Assembly: GCA_022793335.1 (NCBI GenBank)
Contig: JAAWCQ010000007.1
Location: 1-64,000 of the forward strand
DNA length: 64,000 nucleotides
From: Clostridia bacterium
Lineage (GTDB): Bacteria > Bacillota > Clostridia > Christensenellales > UBA1242
Reading direction: 5' to 3'
The position numbers and the translations under genes are program-made. Positions 47,944-64,000 of the stretch are shown piece by piece. Under the pieces are notes generated by a model that ran no database searches, was not told the DNA's origin, and worked only from the letters and a program-made list of their open reading frames with translations. The first letter of the stretch is position 1. The number at the start of each line of letters is the position of its first letter.

Positions 47944-48840
47944 GTGAAATTTTTATCAGTTGCTGAAATTGCTAAAAAATGGGGGATGAGCGATAGGTCT
48001 GTTAGAAACTATTGTGCCCAGGGTCGTATAAAAGGTGCGTTTCTAACCGGCAAAACTTGGAATATCCCAGCAGATACAGTTAAGCCAGAAAGAGAGAATA
48101 AAGCGAAGTTTAGTGATAACGAACTTTTGAATGTTTTAAAAGAACAAAAAGACATGAAACTTAAAGGTGGAATTTATCACAAGACGCAAATTGAGTTAAC
48201 TTATAACTCGAATCATATTGAGGGTAGCAAGCTTACAGAAGATCAAACAAGATTTATATTTGAAACTAACACAATTGGCATTGACAACGGAACAATAAAT
48301 ATCGACGATGTTATAGAAACTTCAAACCACTTCAAATGCGTTGATTATATCATTGATAATGCGAAGAAAATTTTGACAGAATCAATGATTAAAGAATTAC
48401 ATTTCATCTTAAAAACTGGAACATCAGACAGTCGCAAGGATTGGTATAATGTTGGTGGATACAAAAAACTTCCAAACGAGGTTGGCGGTGAGGAAACCTG
48501 TAAACCAGAGAATGTTGCAGTTGAAATGAAAAAACTTTTAGAAGTTTACAACACAAAACAAACAAAATCATTAGAAGATATAATTGAGTTTCATCAATAC
48601 TTTGAAAAAATCCATCCATTTCAAGATGGTAACGGCAGGGTAGGTCGCCTAATAATGTTTAAAGAATGTTTATCAAACAATATAGTTCCATTTATTATAG
48701 ACGACAGTTTAAAATTCTACTACTATCGCGGCCTTAAGAAATGGAACAACGAACATAGTTTCTTAATTGATACTTGTTTGACTGCTCAGGATAAGTATAG
48801 AAACTGGTTGGTATATTTTGACATCACAACTAGAGTATAA
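47944..48840 (+). CDS. Fic-domain protein with N-terminal helix-turn-helix
   Basis: In this 298-residue protein residues 1-50 are a MerR/excisionase-like helix-turn-helix (SVAEIAKKWGMSDRSVRNYC, then GRIKGAFLTGKTWNIPADTV). The inhibitory helix motif S-x-x-x-E-G lies at 89-94 (SNHIEG) and should block ATP until released. The catalytic motif is HPFQDGNGRVGR at 224-235, complete, so AMP transfer to a protein hydroxyl is expected. The start is GTG with GGGGGAGAGATC before it. It sits between gene fragments and the BREX operon on the same strand, 172 bases upstream, with its own promoter. Toxin, regulator or defence accessory roles are all possible. Confidence 0.88.
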   Translation: MKFLSVAEIAKKWGMSDRSVRNYCAQGRIKGAFLTGKTWNIPADTVKPERENKAKFSDNELLNVLKEQKDMKLKGGIYHKTQIELTYNSNHIEGSKLTEDQTRFIFETNTIGIDNGTINIDDVIETSNHFKCVDYIIDNAKKILTESMIKELHFILKTGTSDSRKDWYNVGGYKKLPNEVGGEETCKPENVAVEMKKLLEVYNTKQTKSLEDIIEFHQYFEKIHPFQDGNGRVGRLIMFKECLSNNIVPFIIDDSLKFYYYRGLKKWNNEHSFLIDTCLTAQDKYRNWLVYFDITTRV

Positions 48841-49012: not shown

Positions 49013-51247
49013 ATGAATTATAAAAATCATATTAAATCTGACAGTTGTTACAAGATTAGTAGTAATAGTATTGTTGAAGATATGTCGTACACCTCACCTG
49101 TAAAATTCAAATTGGGGGATGAGAGCTATTTTGTATCAAATTGGACTGAATATATCGTTCTTTTAGCAAAAAAATTAATTAGAGTTTATCCAGAAGTGGA
49201 TATTACTAAATTTAACTTTTCACAGACCAAAAGATGTATTTGGTCGAAAGATGGAAATGAATTTTTAGCCCCAAAAAGAATTAGCGAAAGTTTATTTTTA
49301 GAAACTAATTATAGTGGAACGGCATTATGTTCTATGTCATTAGAATTAATAAAATTTTACAAGATTGACTTCAATAACTTTGTTTTATATTTCTGTAATA
49401 AAAAAGAACAACAAAATGAACTGCTAGTTGATTGGCAAGCAGTTAATAATGGAGAACTTTCGCTATATTCGTTCAGCAACCCAACGAAGTTTAGCTTATT
49501 TGATGTGGAATTGACTGTCAATTCATGGATGGATGTCGTCTACGAGATGTGTAATGTCCTGATAGATAAAAAATATAATGTAAACACAAGTTTATATTTT
49601 ATAAAAGAAATGCCTTTGCCTTATGATAAGGATCATTATGGATGCAAGCAGTTAAAAAACGGACTTTATATCCAGGTTCCTTACATGGCGAACTCTATAT
49701 TAAAATGCATTGTAAATCTCTTGAAACATAGTAAGATAGGGTTTAATGAATGTAAGATTTATTTTAGCAATAAAAATAGTAAAAAACTGGATTGGCCAGA
49801 AAAGATGGTCAAAAAATCCGACACATTAAAATTATCAGCAGTTGATGCTGGATGTATTAGGGAAGTTTATGTAAATAATTTCAAAAGAGGTTATAGAGTT
49901 GGTAGTATAATTGACTATAGTAGATTTAATAACTTTTTTAATAGCGAATACAACAAGGATATAGCTTTAGATCAGAAAGTTGTTGAAGATATATTAGCTG
50001 AGACATCAATAAAGATAGAAGATAAAATTATTGATGTAAGAAATGTTATTACTGATTCGTTATTAGTAAAATTAAAAAAATATATCGACGATCAATTTAA
50101 TAATAACTATTATATGCTATATTACAAGGATATTTATTTGCAGTATGAAAATGAACTAATTTCAACAAATGTTTCAAATGAATTGATTTTAAAAAATATA
50201 CTTATTAAATTGTATCCTAAAGAATATGTTTACGAAAGAACATATATGCAGAGTAATATAAATTTAATGGATATAGTGCAAGAAGTGAGACAGTGTTTTG
50301 AAACAAACGATAAATCTTTAAGTATTGAAGAAATAGTTGGTATGTTTGTCGGCGTTTCAGAAGAAAAAGTCAGGCAGATAATTTATTCAGATAATGGATA
50401 CATAAATGTCGCAAAAAATACTTATTGTAGAATTGAACAATTTAAATGTAATAAAAATGAAATTAATATGGCGCTAGATGTTGTTAATGAGTTAATTAAA
50501 ACTAACGGCTTTGCCTTAAGAGATAATGTAATTAATATTTTATTGCAAAGGGCTCCTGCGATTATAGAAAATAATCAATGTTTTGGGAATGCGGGGATAT
50601 GTAGAGCTTTGGAGATATTATTCAATAATAATATTAAGTTTAAGAGATATCTATTTACAAAAGATGGAGAAGAATTAGTTTTTTCTAAGATATTAATAAA
50701 CGCTTTTAAAGAATATGATCATATAACTATACAGCAGTTACAAGTTGTAGCAGAAGAAATAGGTATTGGCCTTTCAAAATACTATTTATCAGAAATTTTT
50801 AATGTGTTTATTAGAGTTAGTGAAAAAGAATTTGTAAGAAAACAAAGTGTGAGTTTTGATATAGCAAAAATAGATGATTTATTGAAGAAGTACACTGCTG
50901 ATAAAGGATATATTTCCCTTAAAGATATCAAAAGTTATTCGCAATTTCCAGTAATGGATTATTCTTGGAATGATTTTTTATTGATTAGTTATATTGAAAA
51001 TTATAGTCCCCAGTTTGAAATAAGAACTGAATCTAACTCTATAAATAAAGCCATAGGATATATTGTTAGAAAAGATTTAAATATTAAAAGCTTTGATGAG
51101 CTTATAGAAAAAGTATTAAGAAATTCTAAAATAAACTTTGATGGAGCTGATAGTGTGTTAAATTATTTATTTGAAATTGGCTTGATAGGGAAAAGAAGAT
51201 ACCAAAATATTGGCGATGTTTTGGACAGGTTAAATGTTATTAATTAA
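49013..51247 (+). CDS. First gene of the BREX-like operon: unknown protein with tandem N-terminal modules
   Basis: In this 744-residue protein two related modules occupy about residues 28-260. One has PVKFKLGDESYFVSNWTEYI and later KIDFNNFVLYFCNKK; the second has PTKFSLFDVELTVNSWMDVV and later KIGFNECKIYFSNKN. Between them lie Y.G..L-type segments. I recall similar short modules on restriction-associated proteins but cannot name them. The C-terminal half has helix-turn-helix-like stretches (SLSIEEIVGMFVGVSEEKVR, and again HITIQQLQVVAEEIGIGLSK). No catalytic motif is seen. GGGGAGG lies 13 bases before the ATG, a long spacing. The brxP-like gene begins 15 bases later. It may recognise DNA or regulate the system. 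Confidence 0.7.
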   Translation: MNYKNHIKSDSCYKISSNSIVEDMSYTSPVKFKLGDESYFVSNWTEYIVLLAKKLIRVYPEVDITKFNFSQTKRCIWSKDGNEFLAPKRISESLFLETNYSGTALCSMSLELIKFYKIDFNNFVLYFCNKKEQQNELLVDWQAVNNGELSLYSFSNPTKFSLFDVELTVNSWMDVVYEMCNVLIDKKYNVNTSLYFIKEMPLPYDKDHYGCKQLKNGLYIQVPYMANSILKCIVNLLKHSKIGFNECKIYFSNKNSKKLDWPEKMVKKSDTLKLSAVDAGCIREVYVNNFKRGYRVGSIIDYSRFNNFFNSEYNKDIALDQKVVEDILAETSIKIEDKIIDVRNVITDSLLVKLKKYIDDQFNNNYYMLYYKDIYLQYENELISTNVSNELILKNILIKLYPKEYVYERTYMQSNINLMDIVQEVRQCFETNDKSLSIEEIVGMFVGVSEEKVRQIIYSDNGYINVAKNTYCRIEQFKCNKNEINMALDVVNELIKTNGFALRDNVINILLQRAPAIIENNQCFGNAGICRALEILFNNNIKFKRYLFTKDGEELVFSKILINAFKEYDHITIQQLQVVAEEIGIGLSKYYLSEIFNVFIRVSEKEFVRKQSVSFDIAKIDDLLKKYTADKGYISLKDIKSYSQFPVMDYSWNDFLLISYIENYSPQFEIRTESNSINKAIGYIVRKDLNIKSFDELIEKVLRNSKINFDGADSVLNYLFEIGLIGKRRYQNIGDVLDRLNVIN

Positions 51248-51262
51248 TAGGAGAAATTAAAA

Positions 51263-53614
51263 ATGTATTCATACGAATGGGATAAAGAAACAGGTGGATA
51301 TATTCTGCAAAGTACTGAGCTAAAATTTAGTAAAGAACCAAGACCTGTTTATTACAAGGAACTTGATATTTTGGGTTTCGATAAATATTGGGAATATGAT
51401 AAAAATGATAAGTACCCATATATGTGGGCGGAGAGTAATTCTTATTATTACAGAGGAGAATTGGTTGCAAGAACGAAAGGCGGCTCATTGTATACAAAGC
51501 CAGAGCTGGACATTGTTAACGAAAATCCAGATATAAATGGAAAACTGCAATTTGTTAATATTCCTAAAATGGTTGAAAAGAATAAAGCAATCATGGAAAC
51601 ATTAGTTAACGCAACGGTTAAGAGAGTATACAATACATATATTGCATATAAAAATAAGATTGATGTTTTTTATGTCGCATTTAGTGGAGGTAAGGATAGC
51701 GTTGCATTATTAGACATAATTCAGAGGGCCTTGCCACACAACTCATTTAAAGTAATTTTTGGTGATACAAAAATGGAAAATCCAGACACATATGATTTAG
51801 TTAATAAAGTTGATTCAATGTGTCAAGATTATGGCATTGAATTTTTACGCGCTACTTCTCATTTGAATACTAATGCTTCTTGGCTTGCTTTCGGATATCC
51901 ATCACAAAAATTAAGATGGTGTTGTGCTGTTCATAAAACAACGCCACAAATTAATTTACTTAGAAAGGTTTTGAACAAAAGAGATTTTAAGGGGATGGCT
52001 TTTGTTGGCGTACGAAGAGATGAAAGTTTAATGAGGTCAAAATATGAAACTATTAGCGAAGGTGAAAAACATGAGGGGCAGTTTAATTTTAATGCAATTG
52101 ATGATTGGAATTCTGCTGAATTATTTCTATATATTTATGAAAATAATTTATTCCTTAACGAAAGCTATAAGAAGGGGAATAGTAGAGTTGGGTGCCTAAT
52201 GTGCCCAATGTCTTCTGGGAAACATGAATATATGAAAAGGGCATGTTATCAAAAGGAGGTTGATTATTTTGTAGATTTAATAAAGAGATCTTCTAATAGA
52301 AAGTTCGAAGAAGAACAAAAGGAAAGACAATTTATAGAAAATGGTGGATGGAAAATAAGAAATAATGGAAGAGATTTGAAGGTCCCAGACATCAAGTATG
52401 AAGAAAAAACAGAAGACGATAAATTATTTATTTATGTAATTAAGAATACAAAATGGTCTATATGGTTAAAGACGTTAGGAGAGTTTTACTCGGATGATGG
52501 AATAAATTACAAAATGATATTTATGCCTCAAAAACAGCAAACTGCTGAGTATTTGTTTAGTGTAGAAGAGGAATCTAATAAACTTAAATTTACCTTAAAT
52601 GCGAAGTCAAAAACAAGAACAGATATTAAATTTTTATCGCTTTTTAAATCTTGTTTAAAAAAATCTGCTTATTGCTTAGGATGTAGAGAATGTGAGGCGA
52701 ACTGTATAAATGGTTGCATATCAATGTCAAATGGCTTAGTGATTGAAAACTGTCAGCATTGTTTTAAATGCCATAATATTGACAGTGGGTGTTTAGTATA
52801 TAATTCAATAAAAATATTAAAAGGAGTGGAGAAAAAGATGAGTTTAGATTGTTATTTGAGCTTCGGTGTTGAAAAGGAATGGGTTGAAAGATATTTAAAA
52901 TATAAAGAGGATTTTTGGAAATCAGAATATAATGATTTGGGTTCTATGAAGATTACTGCATTAAAAAGATTTTTGAGAGATGCAAAATTGAAGCTTGAAA
53001 CTGATAAAACAGATCCCACATCACTTAAAATGAACGAGATATATGACAAACATATTCTTAATACTTTTGATTATTGGTCTATAATACTTGTAAATTTAGC
53101 CTATTCTCCACAAATTAATTGGTTTTTGAAAAATACAGTTATAAATGAGAGATATTTGGTAGATGAACTTAAGGACAAGATAAGTGATGGTAGTAGTGTG
53201 GGAACAATTTCCAATATTATTTCTTCTTTAAAAAATTTAATAATGAAAACTCCATTAGGACAAGAAATAAACATAGCCTCTTGTGAGATGAGTGGTAATA
53301 AGTTAGAATCTATCACAAGGTTGAAATCTAGGGGTATTAATCCTATAGTAGTCCTATATAGTTTGTATAGGTTTGCAGAAGCATGTGGAGATTATTATCA
53401 GTTCACATTAACAAGATTGTTTAATTATTCAATAGATAGTGATGGCGTAAGTCCGGCCCGGATATTTGGTGTAGATAAAGAAGAATTGCAAAAAATATTG
53501 ATGGGGCTTTCTATCAACTATCCAGACTTTATAAATACTACTTTTACATTAGATCTTGACAATATTAATTTAAGAAAAAATAAGACATCATTTGATGTTT
53601 TGAATTTAATTTAG
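51263..53614 (+). CDS. brxP: BrxP-like PAPS-reductase-family protein with an Fe-S cysteine cluster
   Basis: In this 783-residue protein the PAPS reductase/ATP-pyrophosphatase core has the P-loop AFSGGKDSVALLDIIQRAL (SGGKDS at 141-146), VIFGDTKMENPDTYD and RWCCAVHKTTP. This is the arrangement of DndC, the sulfur-activating enzyme of DNA phosphorothioation. Residues 465-509 carry CLGCRECEANC, CQHCFKCHN and further cysteines, enough for two 4Fe-4S clusters of ferredoxin type. The remaining 270 residues, with FGVEKEWVERYLKY and ITALKRFLRDAK, resemble the DUF4007-type domain found beside such proteins, a tentative match. AGGAGAAATTAAAA precedes the ATG. A sulfur-transfer role is inferred, not shown. 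Confidence 0.85.
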   Translation: MYSYEWDKETGGYILQSTELKFSKEPRPVYYKELDILGFDKYWEYDKNDKYPYMWAESNSYYYRGELVARTKGGSLYTKPELDIVNENPDINGKLQFVNIPKMVEKNKAIMETLVNATVKRVYNTYIAYKNKIDVFYVAFSGGKDSVALLDIIQRALPHNSFKVIFGDTKMENPDTYDLVNKVDSMCQDYGIEFLRATSHLNTNASWLAFGYPSQKLRWCCAVHKTTPQINLLRKVLNKRDFKGMAFVGVRRDESLMRSKYETISEGEKHEGQFNFNAIDDWNSAELFLYIYENNLFLNESYKKGNSRVGCLMCPMSSGKHEYMKRACYQKEVDYFVDLIKRSSNRKFEEEQKERQFIENGGWKIRNNGRDLKVPDIKYEEKTEDDKLFIYVIKNTKWSIWLKTLGEFYSDDGINYKMIFMPQKQQTAEYLFSVEEESNKLKFTLNAKSKTRTDIKFLSLFKSCLKKSAYCLGCRECEANCINGCISMSNGLVIENCQHCFKCHNIDSGCLVYNSIKILKGVEKKMSLDCYLSFGVEKEWVERYLKYKEDFWKSEYNDLGSMKITALKRFLRDAKLKLETDKTDPTSLKMNEIYDKHILNTFDYWSIILVNLAYSPQINWFLKNTVINERYLVDELKDKISDGSSVGTISNIISSLKNLIMKTPLGQEINIASCEMSGNKLESITRLKSRGINPIVVLYSLYRFAEACGDYYQFTLTRLFNYSIDSDGVSPARIFGVDKEELQKILMGLSINYPDFINTTFTLDLDNINLRKNKTSFDVLNLI

Positions 53615-53623
53615 GAGAAAAAA

Positions 53624-56600
53624 ATGAAGTACCGTGATTATTTTAGTATTGATAAAAAATATTTCCCAACAGTCAATCAACAAGTCTTAAATTCTATGGA
53701 TAAGGATTTTTGGAAAACTTTTTATCCACACAAAACTTTTGTTAAATTATTGAATGATGTTGAGAGTATTTTATCTAGAAGAAAAAAGCAATCAATTTGG
53801 GTGGAAGGAGCTTATGGTACGGGAAAATCACATGCTGTATTGACTGTAAAAAAAATCCTAGATGCTTCTGAAGAAGAGATGAAGTCCTATTTTGAGAAAT
53901 ATAAGGACAATTTATCTGAGGATTTATTTAATAAAATCCAAAATCAGAAAAATCAAGGAAAGATATTAACAATACATAGATATGGTTCGTCAGGCATTAC
54001 AAGTGATAACCATTTAATTGTTGCATTGCAAGAAAGCATTAAAAATGCAATGAAAGAAGAAGGGGTGGAAAATCAAGCCGAGGAATCATTGAAGGACAGT
54101 ATTATTAAATGGTTGTCTGACACTGTGAATAAGGGTTATTTTAATGAACTTATAAAAAATAAGTATTCATATAAATTTGACGGAGATTCAGTAGATACGA
54201 TTCTAGAAAAATTGAAAACTTTAAGTGGTGATAATGTTATATCGTTAATAAATAAAATATTTTTTGTGGCAGATGAAGTTGGAATTACTGCAATGAAATT
54301 GGATATATCCGATCTTTGCGAATGGATTAAGAACATTATAAAGGCTAACAAATTGAAGGCTATAGTTTTTATTTGGGACGAATTTACTGAATATTTTAAC
54401 AAGAACAAACATGCTTTAACTGGTTTTCAACAATTGATTGAGATGAGCAATACACAACCTTTTTATATGATGATTGTTACACATAAATCTGAAGCTTTGT
54501 TTCATGACACTGATAGTGATAAGCAAAAAATTTTAGATAGATTTGTTCAACCGACATGCAATATTGAATTGCCGGAAAATATGGCATTTCAGTTAATGGG
54601 GGCTGCACTAAAAAAGACTTCAGATATCGTTAGATTAAATGATTGGATAACTTATGAGGATGAACTGAATAGTCAACTTATGGCCTCAAAAAAGCTTGTA
54701 ATTGAGGCTGCAAATATTTCCGACAAAGAGCTTAGGAATATTTTACCTATTCATCCTTATGCTGCCCTATTATTAAAGTATTTATCTACTGCTTTTGACT
54801 CTAATCAAAGAAGTATGTTTGATTTTATTAAAAATGATAGAGGAAATGAAATTAAAGGATTTCAATGGTATATTGATAACTATGGCCCACTGGATAATTG
54901 GCCTTATTTAACTATTGACATGCTTTGGGATTTTTTCTATGAAAAAGGAAAAGAACATTTAGCTACTGATATAAGAATAATTTTGGATTCCTATGAAAGA
55001 TTATCAAAAAACAATTTGACTGAGGAAGAGAAAAGAGTTTTTAAGACAATTCTATTGTTGCAAGCAATCTCTCAAAAGGTTGGCGATTCGGTTGAGATTT
55101 TGATTCCAAATGAGAGGAATGTTTCTAATGCATTTGATGGTACCGAGTTGGAGCATAATGCAGTATCAATTGCTGAAAGATTGATAAAATATGGATGTAT
55201 CTTTAAAAAACCTGTTGGGAATAATAAGTTTCAATTTTCTTCTATAATAGCAAGTGGAGATACATCTGCCATTGAGAAAAATAAACAACAGTTAAGAGAT
55301 AATAAAAGGACTCAAGATTTAGTTACGGAAGGAGATCTAGAAGAGTCTGTTCCTTTTGATTCTTATTTAAAACTAAGATTTTCTAAAAAGGCTGCAACGG
55401 TTGATAATTTTAAGAGAGTTTATGCGGATCTCAGGTCTCAATCAAACACAGATAAGATAAGTTGTATTCTTGCTTTTGCGAAGGATGATAATGAATGTGC
55501 CGCTCTTCGTAAGGTTTTATCTGAAACCCAATTAGATGAAAACATCATAGTTATTGATACTTCACCAAATGTGTTAGGGGGTGATAGCCTTGATCAGTAT
55601 TATGAAAATGCTGCCAATGGGATGTATCAAAGAGGCAAGGATAATGGGTTGGCATCTGATTATGATAGAAGAGCATTGGAGGTTATTAATAGATGGAAAG
55701 AAAGAATACGTTGTGGCGAATTCATTATTCATACTAATAATGTGAATGGAAAAAGATTATCAAATTATGATGAATTGATGGACGAATTGAAATTTATAAA
55801 CGGCAATAAATATCCTTTAGGACTGGAAAATTATAATGTTATTGGGAACATGTTCTCGGCAAGTTCATTGGCTTTAGGTGTTCAATGTGGAATTAGGCAA
55901 GAGACTTCGGGGACATATAAATCTATTAATGATGCAACAAAGTTAGAGACAGCATTAAAAGAAGTGTGGAATTTCCCTGAAGGAGAAAAATATTGGGCAG
56001 AGAAACCAAATCTAATTATCTCACAAATTAAGATTAAAATTGAAGGTGAAATTTCAAAATCATTTGAAGAACAAGGTAGTATATCAATATCACATATATA
56101 TGATATCTTAAAAGATAAACCTTATGGATTTATGCCTTGCAATTTGACCGCGTTTATGATGGGATTCTTACTTAAAGAATATGCTTCTCCAGAATATAGA
56201 TGGAGTGATGGAAATTTAAGCGACAATATGAGTGAATCTCGTTTAAAAGATATGGTAAAAGAGGTTATCGATTTACAAATGAATTATAACCCCCGCTATA
56301 AGGAAAAGTACATTAAAAAGATGACTGAAGAAGAAATTAAATTTATTTCTGTAACGGCTAAAGTTTTTGATATACCAGAATTTAAATGTAATTCAGTAGA
56401 GCAAGTAAGAGAAAGTGTCAGATTCAAATTAAAAGACTTAAGTTTTCCATTGTGGAGTCTTAATTATTTAATTGAGTATAAGAGCTTGAATTCAGATACA
56501 AATTTGTTAAAAAATGTGATTGAGGCATATTGTGGCGTGGCAAATTCAAATAATTTTTCAGGCAGCGCTGATGGGACGTCTGAGTTGGATATTGCTTTAG

Positions 56601-57814
56601 GTATAGGTAAATTATTTATACAAAATGATACTCTTGAAAACGATTTAATTGTATTAATTAGTAAAGAAAACTGTCGAGAAGGTATGCAAAATTATTTAAA
56701 AAAGTATTCAAATGGCAGGTTGGTTGAATTGGCTAATCAAATTAATGATCATAACGACTACTTAAATTTATTAAAAGAAAAATTTGATGCTGTTGATGCT
56801 AACTGGGTTTGGAGTAGAGATACTGTCGATAAACAAATAGACGATCTGATAATAGAATATTCTATTATTTCAGAAAGTTATAAATATTCAATCATAACTA
56901 ATTCATATGATAAATGTATTATTGAGTGGTGTAATAAAATGCAGACTATTAAATTGCCATATGATTTAATTAGTAGTTATAATGAAGAATTGAGTACTTT
57001 GTTAAAAATTTTGCATGACATAAAGAGAACCACAATATTAGAAAAAAATAATAAAGAAACCTTCTTTAATTTGCTAAAAACAAAGGAAAAAGTTTTTAAT
57101 AGTTTTTATAATAATCAAATAGACTTGTTTAAGGCCATTTGTCAATCTTATTTAAATGGTCTTGAAGACGAGCATATAAGAAACATATATAGAAATCTTC
57201 CTGGCAATCTTTTTACAGATAATAAAAATGAATTTTTTGATAAATTACAACATGTAAAAAATGATTATATTTCTCAATTAGGAAGAGAAAAGTTGAAGAA
57301 ATTATGGACTGAAAAGACAAATAGCGAATCCCCAAGAAATTGGTCGGAAAAAAATAGAACTCCATTATTATGTATGGTGCCGGATGGTGAAGAAAATTAT
57401 GCTAAAGAGGTTTTTGGTATATTAATAAAGACCAATCCTGACAATTTAGAAGTTGAAAAAGCGGCAAAATTCATAAGCGAAGCTGAATTTATGGAAGAAC
57501 TTAATTATAAAGACAAACAAAATGATTGCATGTTAAGAAAAATGTCGAAGCAATATGCTGTTCTTTTTGATGATGTGGACGAAATTAGAAATTACCTACA
57601 TGATTATATTTCTATGGATGTTTATGATTGGTATCCCAATATTGTTGTGGAAAATAAATTACATGAGTTTGCAGAGAAGAAATATAAGAATGGTACCAAT
57701 AAAATAGCAATTGAAAAAATTGAAAACATGGAATCTGATAAATTAAAAAAATATTTAATTAATTTAGTAAGAGATAATGTAAATGTTGGAATCGAAATTA
57801 TTAATGATAAGTAG
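53624..57814 (+). CDS. brxC: BrxC-like large ATP-binding protein
   Basis: The 1396-residue protein has an N-terminal P-loop ATPase: WVEGAYGTGKSHAVLTVKK (Walker A about residues 62-70). KAIVFIWDEFTEYF is a Walker B near 246. MMIVTHKSEALF is a sensor-like segment, and ILDRFVQPTCNIELP follows. The rest is long and largely helical with no second clear motif. This is the layout of BrxC, the large ATPase common to BREX systems. It begins nine bases after brxP and ends eight before pglZ, so all are in one operon. Codons are richer in TTA/ATA than in the core genes upstream, suggesting transfer. Confidence 0.82.
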   Translation: MKYRDYFSIDKKYFPTVNQQVLNSMDKDFWKTFYPHKTFVKLLNDVESILSRRKKQSIWVEGAYGTGKSHAVLTVKKILDASEEEMKSYFEKYKDNLSEDLFNKIQNQKNQGKILTIHRYGSSGITSDNHLIVALQESIKNAMKEEGVENQAEESLKDSIIKWLSDTVNKGYFNELIKNKYSYKFDGDSVDTILEKLKTLSGDNVISLINKIFFVADEVGITAMKLDISDLCEWIKNIIKANKLKAIVFIWDEFTEYFNKNKHALTGFQQLIEMSNTQPFYMMIVTHKSEALFHDTDSDKQKILDRFVQPTCNIELPENMAFQLMGAALKKTSDIVRLNDWITYEDELNSQLMASKKLVIEAANISDKELRNILPIHPYAALLLKYLSTAFDSNQRSMFDFIKNDRGNEIKGFQWYIDNYGPLDNWPYLTIDMLWDFFYEKGKEHLATDIRIILDSYERLSKNNLTEEEKRVFKTILLLQAISQKVGDSVEILIPNERNVSNAFDGTELEHNAVSIAERLIKYGCIFKKPVGNNKFQFSSIIASGDTSAIEKNKQQLRDNKRTQDLVTEGDLEESVPFDSYLKLRFSKKAATVDNFKRVYADLRSQSNTDKISCILAFAKDDNECAALRKVLSETQLDENIIVIDTSPNVLGGDSLDQYYENAANGMYQRGKDNGLASDYDRRALEVINRWKERIRCGEFIIHTNNVNGKRLSNYDELMDELKFINGNKYPLGLENYNVIGNMFSASSLALGVQCGIRQETSGTYKSINDATKLETALKEVWNFPEGEKYWAEKPNLIISQIKIKIEGEISKSFEEQGSISISHIYDILKDKPYGFMPCNLTAFMMGFLLKEYASPEYRWSDGNLSDNMSESRLKDMVKEVIDLQMNYNPRYKEKYIKKMTEEEIKFISVTAKVFDIPEFKCNSVEQVRESVRFKLKDLSFPLWSLNYLIEYKSLNSDTNLLKNVIEAYCGVANSNNFSGSADGTSELDIALGIGKLFIQNDTLENDLIVLISKENCREGMQNYLKKYSNGRLVELANQINDHNDYLNLLKEKFDAVDANWVWSRDTVDKQIDDLIIEYSIISESYKYSIITNSYDKCIIEWCNKMQTIKLPYDLISSYNEELSTLLKILHDIKRTTILEKNNKETFFNLLKTKEKVFNSFYNNQIDLFKAICQSYLNGLEDEHIRNIYRNLPGNLFTDNKNEFFDKLQHVKNDYISQLGREKLKKLWTEKTNSESPRNWSEKNRTPLLCMVPDGEENYAKEVFGILIKTNPDNLEVEKAAKFISEAEFMEELNYKDKQNDCMLRKMSKQYAVLFDDVDEIRNYLHDYISMDVYDWYPNIVVENKLHEFAEKKYKNGTNKIAIEKIENMESDKLKKYLINLVRDNVNVGIEIINDK

Positions 57815-57822
57815 GAGAAAAT

Positions 57823-60066
57823 ATGACAATTCAAGAGGTTAATTATGTTAAAGAATATTTATTTGAAGGAGATATAAATGAAACATGTATCTTGAATATT
57901 GAAAGTTTAGATATGTATAATAACATAGTTAAAGCAATTAAAGAGCTAAACATAAATATAGTTAGATTGTCATCTTTTTGTCTGAATGATAATGTTTCGC
58001 CAAATATGGAAAATTTTTATAATGCGTTAGAACATATAAACCAACCTACAGCTGTGATAGGAATTAGTCAATTCTTTAAATTTATTGGAAAGGATAGGCT
58101 AAAAAATGAAATTTCTGTTGCACTATCGAAGACTCTCAAAAACAAGGCGTTATTTATAACATTTCAATGTTTTGATGTATTAAAAGAAATACTTTCTCAA
58201 GATATTCGTCTACACAACAGAATTACAATTTTGGGGGAGAAAAGCATAGATAATTTTTGTTTTGATTTTATAAAGGTGGATGTTAATCAATCCAATGAAA
58301 TTCGCGGTTTTAAAAATTTGCTCGCAAAAATGGAAGATAACCTATCAAAAGATACATATAGATGCTTTACGACAATTGACGATAGAATATTTAAAGAGCA
58401 TTGTTATGCAATAAACATTATTAACAACTACTATGATGTAATAGCTAAATTTGATAAAACCATTAAATTATATTCTGATGCTGAATTTATGTCGCAGGAA
58501 CAATGGGGAAATTTATATAAGATTGTAAAAAAATATGATTGTTTGGATTCTGCTTACAATAAACTGATCGGGAGAACTGATAGATATAAATGTTATGAAT
58601 CCATAATTAATGATTCACGCTTAACCAACATCTACATTTTAGCATTGAGAGCTGATGGTTCTACGCACTATTTGAATTATGTTGCAAAGTCAATAAAAAA
58701 TGTAAATGATTTTCTTAAAGGTGTTTATTTATCTTTTATAGAAGTTCCGGTTAAAAGTGAGAACTTTAATATCTATTATTTGGAAAGAAAGAAGTTGTGT
58801 AATGTATTTAATTCGGGGAGAACAGCGGGATTTATCAATGATTATTGTAAATTTGCAGTAAACAAAGGAATAGTTGGACTAAAGTATCTTACTGATAATA
58901 CTGAAAATGAAAGAAAGGCTGTAATTGAAATAATTGATAAAGAATATTTTAAGGATATATCGGAGTTAATAAAATCTGTATCAGAAGTGTATCCCGACTT
59001 AGCTGCGTATTTAAGTTGCTATTATTTTAATATAAATTCGGGATTGTTAGATGAATATTTTAAAGAATACAAGTTTTGCAAAGTTGTAAATAAAATATCG
59101 CATAAAATGGAAGAACTTGTTCGTGAACAGTCTATAAAACGGGGATATAATTACTTGTTGCCAACAAGGACAGAAGTGCTTGAAAGTATTAAAGGGGCAA
59201 ATGATTATGTGATATTTACTGATGCAATGGGAGTCGAATATTTATCATTTATTTTAAAGAAAAGTAAAGATTATCAAATGAATGTTAATATTCAAGTTGC
59301 AAGAGCTAATCTTCCAACATTAACAGATAAAAATAAGGATTTCGAATATGAGTATAATTATAAAGAGTTGGATAAATTAAAACACCATCCTGAAGGAGAT
59401 TATAATTATGAAAAAACCAAATTACCTATACATATTGTAAAAGAATTAAATTTGGTGGACGAGCTATTAAAAACGGCCTTAGACAAATTATCCACCAAGA
59501 GTAGAGTATTGTTGGTTTCTGATCATGGGGCTAGCAGATTGGCGGTTATAGCTAATTCTCAAGTTATAAACTCAGGTTCGCAGGGAGAACATAATGGACG
59601 TTGTTGTAATGCTATAGGTGTTACCAATATGCCAAATTCAGCAGTTGAGGAAGGTGGATATTATTGTATGGCCAACTATGATAGATTCAAGGGAGGTAGA
59701 GCCTCAGAAGTTGAGGTCCATGGTGGCGCGACACTTGAAGAGGTTGTAGTTCCGATTATAGTGTTAACTAGAGAATTAATACAAATAAATGTAAAATTGA
59801 TTAATACATTAATAAAAGTGAGTTTTAAACAAAAAGCAATATTAGGAATAGAGACGTCCATTAAACTACAAAATCCATATGTAATAATAAATGGCAAAAA
59901 ATACAATGCTGAAAATAATAACGAAAAGCTAGCAGAGTTTATCTTAGATGATATTAAAAAGCCCGGTGATTATATTGCAAAATTATATGATGGCGGAAAT
60001 CAAATTGGAGATGAACTAAACTTTATTATCGAAAGTAAAGTTTCAAGTGAGAATACATTATTCTAA
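57823..60066 (+). CDS. pglZ: PglZ-domain protein of the BREX-like system
   Basis: In this 747-residue protein the C-terminal alkaline-phosphatase-like domain begins at YVIFTDAMGVEYLSFILKKS (Asp near 465). It continues with VARANLPTLTDKN, VLLVSDHGASRLAVIA near 565, and VEVHGGATLEEVVVPIIVLT near 629. The Asp and DHG/HGG residues are the expected metal ligands. PglZ is one of the hallmark genes of all BREX types. Its target is unsettled in the family. The N-terminal 400 residues are helical and without known motifs. TAGGAGAAAAT precedes the ATG. The brxL-like gene follows after 11 bases. Confidence 0.9.
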   Translation: MTIQEVNYVKEYLFEGDINETCILNIESLDMYNNIVKAIKELNINIVRLSSFCLNDNVSPNMENFYNALEHINQPTAVIGISQFFKFIGKDRLKNEISVALSKTLKNKALFITFQCFDVLKEILSQDIRLHNRITILGEKSIDNFCFDFIKVDVNQSNEIRGFKNLLAKMEDNLSKDTYRCFTTIDDRIFKEHCYAINIINNYYDVIAKFDKTIKLYSDAEFMSQEQWGNLYKIVKKYDCLDSAYNKLIGRTDRYKCYESIINDSRLTNIYILALRADGSTHYLNYVAKSIKNVNDFLKGVYLSFIEVPVKSENFNIYYLERKKLCNVFNSGRTAGFINDYCKFAVNKGIVGLKYLTDNTENERKAVIEIIDKEYFKDISELIKSVSEVYPDLAAYLSCYYFNINSGLLDEYFKEYKFCKVVNKISHKMEELVREQSIKRGYNYLLPTRTEVLESIKGANDYVIFTDAMGVEYLSFILKKSKDYQMNVNIQVARANLPTLTDKNKDFEYEYNYKELDKLKHHPEGDYNYEKTKLPIHIVKELNLVDELLKTALDKLSTKSRVLLVSDHGASRLAVIANSQVINSGSQGEHNGRCCNAIGVTNMPNSAVEEGGYYCMANYDRFKGGRASEVEVHGGATLEEVVVPIIVLTRELIQINVKLINTLIKVSFKQKAILGIETSIKLQNPYVIINGKKYNAENNNEKLAEFILDDIKKPGDYIAKLYDGGNQIGDELNFIIESKVSSENTLF

Positions 60067-60077
60067 GGGAGAACATA

Positions 60078-61508
60078 ATGAACAAGTTAAGAGAATGTTT
60101 TGATGAAATGGTTGTATATAAAGATTTAAAAAAGACGAATTTCTTTTCGGCTTTAAGTCTTCCATCCTTCTTAAGGGATTGGCTTTTAAAACAATTTGAA
60201 GATGACGATGGAAATCTTGACCAAGATGGGGTAAAAAAATATATAGATACATATCTTCCTAAAAAATCCGATTGGATAAGTATAAAAGATAGATTAGTAA
60301 ATGACAGGGAAAGAGTAAAGTTTTTAACAAAAATATCTATCGATATAGATGTTAAGACCAATGAAACGACTTTTGCCCTACCAGATTTTGGTCTTACCAA
60401 TAAGGAGACAATAATTGAGTCTTTAGTTTGGGAAAGTTGTAAAGATGAATTGGTAAAAGGTAAAGAAACTTGGGGCGTAGTTGAATTAGGGTATAGGCCA
60501 CCAGAGAGTAAAAAATTGCCGGGGAAAATAAAACTTTTAAGTTTTAAAAATTTTTGTCCTTATAATATAGATCTGGATTTTTATAAAGAAGCTAGGCGGG
60601 AGTTTTCTATAGAAGAATGGGTAGATATTCTATTGGGAGCAATTGACTATAACGCTGGCGGTTATAAGAATATTGAAGAGAAATTGACCATGTTAACAAG
60701 ACTATTACCATTTGTGGAAAAGAGGCTTAATTTAATAGAATTGGCGCCAAAGGGCACGGGTAAATCATATCTATTTGGACGTGTAAGCAAGTTTGGGTGG
60801 TTGTCTTCTGGTGGTGTGATGTCAAGAGCAAAGATGTTTTATGACATTAGTAAAAGGACTCAAGGTCTAGTTTGCAATCATGATTTTATTGCCTTAGATG
60901 AGGTCCAGACCATTACCTTTGCTGATGTTGATGAAATGAGAGCCGCATTGAAAGGATATATGGAATCGGGGGTATTTACGGTTGGTAACTATGAAGGTGT
61001 AGCTGATGCTGGAATTATATTGTTGGGTAATATCAAAAAAGAGAACATGGATGAATATTTAGACATGTTCGCCGACTTGCCTAAGGAATTCCATGAAAGT
61101 GCACTTCTGGATAGATTTCACGGGTTCATTAAAGGTTGGGATATCCCAAGAATGCATGATGATCTTAAAATGACAGGCTGGGCACTTAATTCTGAATATC
61201 TTTGTACTATTTTACATATGCTGAGAAGTGATGTTAGTTATCGTTCAATTGTTGATAGATTAATAGAGGTTCCTGAAAAAGCTGATACCAGAGACACTGA
61301 AGCCGTAAAAAGATTAAGTACTGCATTCTTAAAGTTGCTTTTCCCAAATGTTGAAAAGGAGTCCGATATCAGAGCGACAGATTTTAATAGGTATTGTTTA
61401 AAGCCTGCAGTAAGAATGAGGGCAACGATAATTAAACAGCTTGGCATAATTGATAGTGAATTTAAAGGGAAAAACATGCCTAATTTTACAATAAAAGAGG
61501 TGATATAA
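60078..61508 (+). CDS. brxL: BrxL-like AAA+ protein lacking the Lon protease domain
   Basis: The 476-residue protein matches BrxL over its N-terminal and AAA+ parts. Present are FVEKRLNLIELAPKGTGKSY (Walker A near 222), SGGVMSRAKMFYD and QGLVCNHDFIALDEVQTITF (Walker B region). GYMESGVFTVG, LLDRFHGFIKGWDIPRM and DTEAVKRLSTAFLKLLFPN follow. Type I BrxL is about 680 residues and ends in a Lon-like serine protease. Here the protein stops after the region equivalent to the AAA+ lid, so proteolysis is not expected. AAGGGAGAACAT precedes the ATG. The stop overlaps the next start by one base (TAATG). Confidence 0.88.
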   Translation: MNKLRECFDEMVVYKDLKKTNFFSALSLPSFLRDWLLKQFEDDDGNLDQDGVKKYIDTYLPKKSDWISIKDRLVNDRERVKFLTKISIDIDVKTNETTFALPDFGLTNKETIIESLVWESCKDELVKGKETWGVVELGYRPPESKKLPGKIKLLSFKNFCPYNIDLDFYKEARREFSIEEWVDILLGAIDYNAGGYKNIEEKLTMLTRLLPFVEKRLNLIELAPKGTGKSYLFGRVSKFGWLSSGGVMSRAKMFYDISKRTQGLVCNHDFIALDEVQTITFADVDEMRAALKGYMESGVFTVGNYEGVADAGIILLGNIKKENMDEYLDMFADLPKEFHESALLDRFHGFIKGWDIPRMHDDLKMTGWALNSEYLCTILHMLRSDVSYRSIVDRLIEVPEKADTRDTEAVKRLSTAFLKLLFPNVEKESDIRATDFNRYCLKPAVRMRATIIKQLGIIDSEFKGKNMPNFTIKEVI

Positions 61509-61699
61509 TGCAGTGCTGTATATGTGGCTTAGATGATTTGAATAAAAATACAATAGGCATAAACAAAAAGTTATTGGGGAAGGATATTAAAAATTATTAT
61601 TGCATGGATTGTTTGGCTGAATATTTAGGCGTAACAGTTCAAGAATTGTATGATAAAATCGAAGAGTTTAAAGAACAGGGATGTAAATTATTTAGTTAA
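61508..61699 (+). CDS. Small zinc-ribbon-like protein, last gene of the BREX-like operon
   Basis: The 63-residue protein opens MQCCICGLDDLNKNT, and a second pair occurs in YYCMDCLAEYLGVT. The CxxC...CxxC spacing fits a zinc ribbon. The rest is a short amphipathic helix (QELYDKIEEFKEQGCK). It overlaps the brxL stop by one base, so it is translated with it and is likely part of the system. It could bind DNA, a partner, or a metal or sulfur carrier. I know of no named BREX gene of this kind. Confidence 0.75.
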   Translation: MQCCICGLDDLNKNTIGINKKLLGKDIKNYYCMDCLAEYLGVTVQELYDKIEEFKEQGCKLFS

Positions 61700-61724
61700 A
61701 AAGGAAAGATTAAATCTTTCCTTT
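61700..61724. terminator. Bidirectional terminator shared by the BREX operon and the second desulfurase
   Basis: AAAGGAAAGAT (61700-61710) pairs perfectly with ATCTTTCCTTT (61714-61724) around TAA, with A- and T-rich flanks. The loop includes the desulfurase stop codon. Confidence 0.85.
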
Positions 61725-62867
61725 CATTTTTTTTATCTGAGTGATTGTTTCACTTATTATTTTTGCGGCAGAATTAAGTTGTTCGATTGTTATCAAATCA
61801 TCAAAAGAAATTCGGACTGAAGAATCTATTGCCTTATTGTCTAGGCCCATTGACTTCAGAACGTGACTCCTACGTTTGTTACTACTATTACAAGCGGAAC
61901 CTATAGAAATATAAACTCCTTTATCATCCAATATATGAAGGAGCCCTTCAGCATCTATATCGTTAAATGTAATATTTAAAATGTTGCTAACCTTTGGAGA
62001 TTCGCCATTAATTTTAAAATTAACATTATGATTTGATAGATATTTAATAAGCGATTTGCTTAAATCTTCATATTTAGTTGTTTTTAAATCTCTACTTTGT
62101 GCATTTAATTCTACCGCTTTGCCGAATCCAACAATAATAGGGGTGTTTGATGTTCCACCACGTTTGGAGAATTCTTGGCTCCCTCCATCTATCAAATCAT
62201 AAATTTTAGTTTTAGATTTAATATATAGCACTCCAATACCTTTTGGTCCATGAATTTTATGAGAACTAAGAGATAATAAATCCGCTTTTATATTTTTTAT
62301 ATCGGGCTTAAAAAGGCTTAGAGCCTGAACAAAATCGACATGGTACGCAACTTTATACTTATGTGCTAAATTTGCAATATCCTCTATTGGTTGAATGCAG
62401 CCTGTTTCATTATTAACAGCCATAACTGAAATTAGTATTGTTTTACTGGTAATTAATTTTTCAACTTCTTTTGGGTTGATGTGCCCAGACTTATCTGGTT
62501 TAACAAAACTAATCGTAAAACCGTTTTTTTTAAGGAAATGAGCGGATTCCAATAAACTATCATGTTCGATAGAAGAAATAATAATATGGTTTCCTTTATC
62601 TCTATTGGCATATGCAAATCCTTTGAGAGCCCAATTATTTGCTTCTGAGCCACTTCCAGTGAAGAATACATTACCTGGCGAACAATTTAAATCATTTGCT
62701 ATCAGTTTTCTTGCACCCTCTATGGCTTGATGAGACATTCTGCCGATTTTGTGTAATGAGTTTGGGTTGCCATAATTATGTGAAAAATATGGTAGCATTT
62801 CAGTTACTACCTTTTCATCGACTTTTGTTGTTGATGCACTATCTAAATAAATGTTAGTGTTTTCCAT
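61710..62867 (-). CDS. Cysteine desulfurase (IscS/DndA-like), convergent with the BREX operon
   Basis: The 385-residue protein is a PLP-dependent desulfurase. SSHKIHGPKGIGVLYI carries the PLP lysine, and YHVDFVQALSLF replaces the usual HTDAAQ (Asp kept, Ala-Ala changed to Phe-Val). SIGSACNSSNKRRSHVLKSMG carries the sulfur-bearing Cys. It is clearly diverged from the housekeeping copy at 19830. Its position beside a DndC-like BrxP suggests it supplies sulfur, as DndA does for phosphorothioation. The ATG lies seven bases after a TATAAT box, so its mRNA should lack a leader. It ends inside the shared terminator. Confidence 0.88.
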   Translation of the reverse strand: MENTNIYLDSASTTKVDEKVVTEMLPYFSHNYGNPNSLHKIGRMSHQAIEGARKLIANDLNCSPGNVFFTGSGSEANNWALKGFAYANRDKGNHIIISSIEHDSLLESAHFLKKNGFTISFVKPDKSGHINPKEVEKLITSKTILISVMAVNNETGCIQPIEDIANLAHKYKVAYHVDFVQALSLFKPDIKNIKADLLSLSSHKIHGPKGIGVLYIKSKTKIYDLIDGGSQEFSKRGGTSNTPIIVGFGKAVELNAQSRDLKTTKYEDLSKSLIKYLSNHNVNFKINGESPKVSNILNITFNDIDAEGLLHILDDKGVYISIGSACNSSNKRRSHVLKSMGLDNKAIDSSVRISFDDLITIEQLNSAAKIISETITQIKKMKGKI

Positions 62868-63230: not shown

Positions 63231-64000
63231 ATGTTGAAGATGAAAGAATTTTTAGAGATCAAAAAATTGAAAGAATATGGATTTACAAAAAGTGAAGTTG
63301 TGAAGATGACTGGGCTTAAACAGTTCTCGGTTAGAAAATATTGGGATTATTCAGTTGATGATTTTGCTGACAGCGACAAGTTGATGCGAAATGATAAGAT
63401 TGAAAAATATCGAAACTTTTTGATGAAAGAATTGAAGGATAATCCCGGGATAAGAAATACCACATTATTTGACAAGATTAAAGAGATTGATGCAAAATTT
63501 GGGGCGAGTGAAAGTGCCTTTTATAGGTATATGAGAAAACTGAGAGAAGTGCTTGGAATAAGCGGAAAGATTGGCAGAGCATATCAGTTGATTGGAGATA
63601 CGAAGCCTGGCGAACTTGCACAAGTGGACATGGGCGAAATATGGATTCGAGATGTATATGATGTAAAAGTTAAGATCTACTTTTGGTGCATTGTGTTGAT
63701 GTATTCAAGATACAAGTTTGTTTATTGCAAGCGAGAGCCGTTTTCAAGTAAGGATTTTGTTGATGTGCATGAGCGAGCATTTGCGTATTTTGGTGGTAGA
63801 CCAATGATGATTATGTACGACCAAGACAGAGTTATGGTTGTGAGCGAGAATTGTGGAAATGTGATCTTTACCAAAGAGTTTGAAACTTATAAAGATTTTA
63901 TTGGTTTGGATGTTTATGTTTGTAAAAAGCAAGATCCTGATACTAAGGGTAGAGTTGAAAATGTTGTTAAGTTTGTTAAAACAAGTTTCTTTGACCACAA
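63231..64000 (+). CDS. IS21-family transposase (IstA-like), 3' end outside window
   Basis: The frame is open from ATG 63231 to the window end (256 codons, no stop). The N-terminal helix-turn-helix is IKKLKEYGFTKSEVVKMTGL, followed by KQFSVRKYWDY. The integrase core has the first Asp in LAQVDMGEIWIRD, the second in MIMYDQDRVMVV, and the Glu in DTKGRVENVVKFVK, a complete DDE triad as in IS21 IstA. ATATGGAGATGAAGAA precedes the ATG. The helper ATPase IstB should lie just beyond the window. The left terminal repeat was not located with certainty. Confidence 0.85.
   Translation, partial: MLKMKEFLEIKKLKEYGFTKSEVVKMTGLKQFSVRKYWDYSVDDFADSDKLMRNDKIEKYRNFLMKELKDNPGIRNTTLFDKIKEIDAKFGASESAFYRYMRKLREVLGISGKIGRAYQLIGDTKPGELAQVDMGEIWIRDVYDVKVKIYFWCIVLMYSRYKFVYCKREPFSSKDFVDVHERAFAYFGGRPMMIMYDQDRVMVVSENCGNVIFTKEFETYKDFIGLDVYVCKKQDPDTKGRVENVVKFVKTSFFDH

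Follow-up and report, generated by a model that had tools for sequence, protein, structure and literature searches.

A type 4 BREX operon with two under-described components and a convergent cysteine desulfurase in a Clostridia bacterium

Organization of the locus

The window, a stretch of 64,000 nt from contig JAAWCQ010000007.1 of a Clostridia bacterium, harbors an intact operon on the forward strand (49013–61699) with the gene order g1-brxP-brxC-pglZ-brxL-ZR, in which consecutive long genes are separated by 8–15 bases. All ORFs of the originally predicted order (an unknown gene, brxP, brxC, pglZ, brxL and a zinc-ribbon gene) are present, and BrxP, BrxC, PglZ and BrxL have profile matches. 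The features of the locus are as follows:

49013..51247 (+): g1, 744 aa; tandem winged helices by prediction, N-terminal module variable
51263..53614 (+): brxP, 783 aa; PP-loop domain resembling PAPS reductase, a pair of ferredoxin-like cysteine motifs and DUF4007-like C-terminal part; PADLOC BrxP, E = 1.1e-245
53624..57814 (+): brxC, 1396 aa; AAA+ ATPase; PADLOC BrxC, 5.4e-253
57823..60066 (+): pglZ, 747 aa, type-4 form; NCBIfam BREX_PglZ_4, 7.8e-109; PADLOC PglZ, 1.6e-77
60078..61508 (+): brxL, 476 aa, short form that lacks the Lon-like C-terminal part; PADLOC BrxL, 1e-226
61508..61699 (+): ZR, 63-aa zinc-ribbon gene whose ATG overlaps the brxL stop codon
61700..61724 (no strand): stem-loop of 11 pairs and T-run with the tail CATTTTTTTT; candidate terminator between ZR and the desulfurase gene
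61710..62867 (−): cysteine desulfurase, 385 aa, convergent; operon membership uncertain

PglZ scores 365 bits against BREX_PglZ_4 (cut-off 140), BrxL aligns with the entire 482-position PADLOC model and also matches Pfam BrxL_N and BrxL_ATPase, and a GxxGxGKS motif is visible in the translation of brxC. Seven proteins, encoded by the five long operon genes, the desulfurase gene and an upstream Fic gene, were scanned with PADLOC, Pfam and NCBIfam. No methyltransferase, PglX/BrxX included, is among their matches listed (for the desulfurase in NCBIfam, the best 25 of 39), which agrees with the operon having been described as lacking one. The stem-loop and T-run had been proposed as a terminator common to the operon and the desulfurase gene; they do lie between the two, and a shared, two-way candidate terminator is plausible at most. 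The region has 11 terminator-like sites, versus 4.4 ± 2.6 in shuffled sequences.

G/C content is 27–33% across the operon compared to 31–39% elsewhere in the window, and no full-length BrxP was found in 36 other genomes of the genus, which gave two partial matches. For these reasons the operon looks acquired. To its left, just upstream of g1, lies a gene for a Fic protein with an HTH_17 N-terminus (47944–48840, +), and ∼60-aa ORFs resembling part of this protein are found immediately upstream of g1 in four relatives (L085:2612–2800, L074:6965–7156, L094:7667–7849 and L127:5959–6159). To the right of the desulfurase gene, a transposase-like ORF (63231–63998, +), which we take to be IS21 IstA, continues past the window edge.

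The operon belongs to type 4 BREX

Judged by its proteins, the operon is of the type 4 BREX class on every point that could be run: brxP, brxC, pglZ and brxL all lie in one operon, PglZ is of the type-4 form, and the seven scanned proteins include no PglX/BrxX methyltransferase. The search against BREX and Dnd profile models that the original prediction called for likewise returned BREX-family matches, and none for g1. A small zinc-finger gene and a desulfurase gene are also shared with type 4 BREX as described in section 34 of PMC12839542, in the part of that survey available; in contrast, the window desulfurase gene is inverted and its product falls outside the usual clade, and g1 is not named in that part.

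BrxP matches Pfam PAPS_reduct (4e-29), and its SGGKDS PP-loop and 12 cysteines are invariant in all 14 aligned BrxPs. Four of these cysteines form CC and CxxC motifs in the reductase core, presumably as in APS reductases, and the other eight form two ferredoxin-like motifs, CxxCxxCxxxC and CxxCxxCx(6)C. The claim of a SGGKDS core with enough cysteines for two Fe-S clusters was therefore correct. Pfam Fer4_10 matches nine of the 14 proteins at E≤0.01 and DUF4007 two of them, the window copy being in neither group; the PADLOC model of the 265-aa BrxP C-terminus covers residues 530–781.

Similarity to other sulfur-based systems is evident but secondary. BrxP resembles SspD (E 3e-17), BrxC gives a secondary match to SspC (7.2e-21) and the desulfurase resembles SspA (7.7e-125); however, the PADLOC scores of BrxP and BrxC are much higher for the BREX models, and the window has PglZ and BrxL instead of SspE or SspFGH. 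PADLOC found no SspB, SspE or SspFGH among the seven proteins, and membership in the Ssp systems was rejected. With DndABCDE the locus shares a DndA-like desulfurase and the PP-loop core of the reductase, which matches DndC at E 9e-12, whereas it has the AAA+ protein BrxC rather than DndD and additional ferredoxin-like motifs. Since the DndC match is weak and confined to the reductase core, and DndD and DndE, like DndFGH, are without a PADLOC match among the seven proteins, membership in the Dnd systems was rejected as well.

A sulfur-based self-mark had been proposed from the window alone. Family membership and two papers back this part of the original prediction, and the sulfur reading of type 4 BREX is already established rather than new, because the available text of both papers describes these systems as phosphorothioate (PT)-based: PMC12839542, a 2026 survey, reports that 255 of 457 taxa have a desulfurase, often accompanied by a small zinc-finger protein, and describes the ferredoxin-type region of BrxP, and PMC11931770 names brxPCZL as PT-making, with a 2024 preprint as its source. 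We put the probability that the window operon is a type 4 BREX whose BrxP puts phosphorothioate sulfur into host DNA at roughly 0.82.

BrxP could also act in ordinary sulfur metabolism, or transfer sulfur to another position in DNA or RNA, so that the mark would not be a phosphorothioate. Its reductase core does match cysH and archaeal PRK13795 models as well, and its 12 cysteines, enough for possibly three clusters, point in the same direction, as DndC has fewer. We consider this very improbable, since the full-length BrxP model matches including the DUF4007-like end, brxP stands in fixed linkage with brxC, pglZ and brxL, and PT has been reported for brxPCZL in the available part of PMC11931770.

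Relatives of the operon and their g1, ZR and desulfurase genes

A scan of 84,980 species genomes gave at least 328 confirmed BrxP matches, the best 80 loci of which were analyzed and lean toward near kin. By record title, they are mostly from Bacillota, and also from Bacteroidota, Spirochaetota, Pseudomonadota, Mycoplasmatota, Verrucomicrobiota and others. Among these best 80 of at least 328, g1 is directly upstream of brxP in 76 of 77 loci with room for it (exception L148), ZR follows brxL in 63 of 64 (exception L102), and a desulfurase gene lies downstream on the operon strand in 47 of 61; 3, 16 and 19 loci, respectively, were dropped for lack of room, those dropped for ZR and the desulfurase including loci in which brxL was not found, such as L121. 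The gene order is more than chance, because 64 of the 65 relatives with all five long genes show it on a single strand. In L121 the order is g1-brxP-brxC-ZR-desulfurase and pglZ and brxL were not found; this locus is possibly a modification-only remnant, as if modification genes can persist without effectors.

A wider sample of 17 loci from order and phylum searches contained g1 in eight (one of them weak, 51 bits), ZR in nine and a desulfurase in two, indicating that the g1/ZR/desulfurase module is a lineage trait and not common to every type 4 BREX. An additional split contig of one genome (G110) carries brxL-ZR-desulfurase. In 398 genomes of the phylum, BrxP was detected in 34 at E≤1e-60, with 15 above 680 bits and one more split. 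ZR was present in 16 genomes, comprising 11 of the 16 with high-scoring or split BrxP and five weaker matches (31–59 bits), four of which adjoin alpha-galactosidase genes. Matches to g1 came from 11 genomes and fell into two groups, eight of at least 169 bits and the remainder not exceeding 46 bits. Seven of the eight strong g1 genes adjoin brxP; the eighth, in G325, lies 175 bases from a contig end.

Five records labelled viral contain the whole g1-brxP-brxC-pglZ-brxL-ZR-desulfurase set: L288 (MT835511.1, 10000–32000), L149, L151, L153 and L166. In L151 brxP is split, and in L166 ZR precedes brxL.

The window desulfurase may not be the operon's own

A second cysteine desulfurase gene does converge on the operon, as claimed, another being located at 19.8–20.9 kb of the window, and the genome has four full-length class-V family genes in all. 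The convergent enzyme matches DndA (3.5e-124) about as closely as SspA, and its alignment contains EH, D..Q, HK and GSAC, which we take to be catalytic-type residues. The expectation that related genomes keep a desulfurase next to brxP holds for the family at 47 of 61 loci with room, and is weaker for the window itself. A desulfurase was found in 48 of the 80 loci analyzed (the best 80 of at least 328), always on the operon strand (48/48), whereas the window copy is on the opposite one. In a 70-row tree, from which L053 was omitted because it duplicates L124, the 49 BREX desulfurases group together in a single clade (95/84), and the window enzyme is placed outside it on a long branch. In the alignment the window enzyme has RGGT and HKIxG like the genus's own C7-type enzyme, where eight BREX copies read RAGTEN and HKFNG.

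The desulfurase could therefore be an unrelated neighbor of a type 4 BREX operon whose sulfur is supplied by a housekeeping desulfurase encoded at another site in the genome, a reading to which we give somewhat less than even odds. Strand and tree position speak for it, and so does an own paralogue of the enzyme, the nearest named one, at 41.8% identity. A housekeeping source would also accord with the absence of a desulfurase within the locus in 14 of 61 relatives, with the three other full-length class-V genes in this genome and with the available text of PMC12839542, where housekeeping enzymes are reported as substitutes. However, the gene lies 11 bases past the ZR stop codon, exactly where relatives keep theirs. 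Moreover, it has no close relative in the rest of the genus, as would be expected for cargo: its best match is 34–44% in 60 other genomes of the genus and 44% in 248 genomes of the order, own genome included. In AU tests, neither placement was rejected, be it inside the BREX clade (p 0.189) or together with the genus's C7-type desulfurase (p 0.404). The window desulfurase may thus be a substitute or only a neighbor, and may have arrived with the operon or replaced the usual one. Either way, the window warns that a desulfurase adjoining brxP is not always the operon's own.

g1 is a rapidly diverging, predicted winged-helix array

The g1 protein of the window has no match in Pfam, NCBIfam, PADLOC or PHROGs, and its best E against PDB sequences is 0.13; none was found in plasmids, and one phage record matched. 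No description of g1 was found in the available portion of the literature searched, with supplements and figures outside that search. In the predicted structure, the core is modelled as several winged helices in a row, and most of the matches listed by VIA-align are isolated winged-helix domains, taken from regulators, Z-DNA readers and polymerase III parts. Going by the model, this likeness would reflect a common fold and does not imply a function. Tandem winged helices are also a likeness to DndG, SspB, BrxA and DUF4007, from which g1 differs in its greater length and variable N-terminus. Comparison of a g1 alignment (54 rows from 78 loci: the window, 46 whole g1 and seven segments) with the BrxP alignment, its DUF4007-like part included, gave no match by hhalign.

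g1 diverges faster than the other operon genes. The median pairwise identity of its last 460 residues is 24% compared to 45% for brxP (77 loci), and the medians over 63 loci are 34% for brxC, 30% for pglZ, 61% for brxL and 55% for ZR. In 70 uncut proteins the length of the N-terminal part ranges between 0 and 958 residues, and the N-terminal module of the window g1 is found at other positions in other g1s. In one pair of loci (L111 and L116) the brxP genes are 81% alike, yet the g1 N-terminal parts have no BLAST match (E≤1e-3); in another (L075 and L128; brxP 95%) the g1 proteins differ by a missing middle piece. Proteins in the g1 slot carry HARE-HTH in two loci (L058 and L159) and sigma-70 region 4 in three (L050, L051 and G325). 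Whole sigma-70-like proteins occupy the slot in L054 and L063, where they may be unrelated neighbors. HARE-HTH has been proposed to tell modified DNA (PMC10853773).

Because of its rapid change and modular DNA-binding parts, g1 fits a site reader or sensor; a protein targeted by phage inhibitors would fit these features as well. As regards the choice of sites in PT systems and the discrimination of self from foreign DNA in type 4 BREX, a conserved gene that diverges this rapidly and keeps its position next to brxP makes a direct candidate for the site chooser.

ZR is linked to the reductase

ZR has five cysteines, and C3, C6, C32, G58, C59 and F62 are invariant in all 63 aligned rows (63 of 65, two near-identical ones being left out), with C35 present in at least 90% of them. 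The AF2 model has a pLDDT of 95. Pfam matches are weak and scattered, the window ZR has no match in NCBIfam, and one member of the 63 matches PHROGs. ZR was found in three phage records and in no plasmid. The fold search gave no match at E≤0.001, the weak matches being HTH regulators.

In 10 viral contigs (L154–L158, L160–L163 and L168), several of them near-identical to each other, ZR forms the C-terminal end of a BrxP-like reductase of 574–578 aa where complete, which is without the DUF4007-like part. Downstream of the fusion gene there is often another BrxP-like gene and then a free ZR, and L158–L163 have a second copy; neither brxC nor pglZ was found in the examined stretch. These fusions point to phage-borne sulfur chemistry.

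The position of ZR within BREX loci also varies: it lies between pglZ and brxL in L159 and L166 and after brxP in L055. Given this variation and the viral fusions, the reductase appears to be the most constant partner of ZR, and the fusion would tie ZR to the sulfur step. With 63 aa and a natural fusion to the reductase, ZR offers a small and easy target for studying how sulfur reaches DNA.

Possible roles of g1 and ZR in marking and restriction

In the mechanism we propose, a cysteine desulfurase, either the window copy or a housekeeping enzyme, would take sulfur from cysteine, ZR would work with BrxP at the sulfur step, and BrxP would put the phosphorothioate sulfur into host DNA. Holding and reading the DNA and choosing the sites would fall to the g1 array, the BrxC ATPase and the DUF4007-like end of BrxP, and PglZ and BrxL would act against unmarked DNA. 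Gene content, order and family membership are observed, as is the retention of g1, ZR and the desulfurase across relatives; it is the assignment of steps, with g1 as DNA reader and ZR as partner of BrxP, that we infer.

The operon is ordinary in kind, and its value lies in exposing g1 and ZR as two under-described components. Tentatively, and as one joint reading that we think could well fail, we see here the core of a large, multi-phylum type 4 BREX lineage, which would have seven parts instead of four or six. In this core g1 would be an unrecognised, fast-diversifying DNA reader with swappable N-terminal modules that sets the marked sites or the DNA to be attacked. ZR would be a dedicated partner of BrxP, perhaps passing sulfur via its invariant C-terminal cysteine, although that ZR hands on sulfur is a guess.

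It is no less conceivable, though again rather doubtful, that g1 and ZR are transcription regulators of the operon and stand outside marking and restriction. The winged-helix array of g1, the sigma-70 region 4 or whole sigma-70 domains in some g1 or upstream proteins and the weak matches of ZR to HTH regulators agree with such a role, and in the available text of PMC12839542 a comparison is drawn between the zinc-finger protein and HTH-type regulators. The ZR-reductase fusions and the HARE-HTH domains in two g1-slot proteins, with their proposed sensing of modified DNA (PMC10853773), argue against it, and faster divergence than that of the other operon genes would be unusual for a local regulator.

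ZR-like proteins outside BREX

Small ZR-like genes are located beside or between alpha-galactosidase (Melibiase_2) genes in four genomes (L277–L280), and all of them retain a GCxLF-like tail with the C-terminal cysteine. A fifth non-BREX match, at the end of a 276-aa ORF, keeps this cysteine as well, which weakens the idea of a sulfur-carrier role special to the C-terminal cysteine of ZR. Because its relatives adjoin alpha-galactosidases, the ZR family appears, by sequence, not to be confined to sulfur systems.
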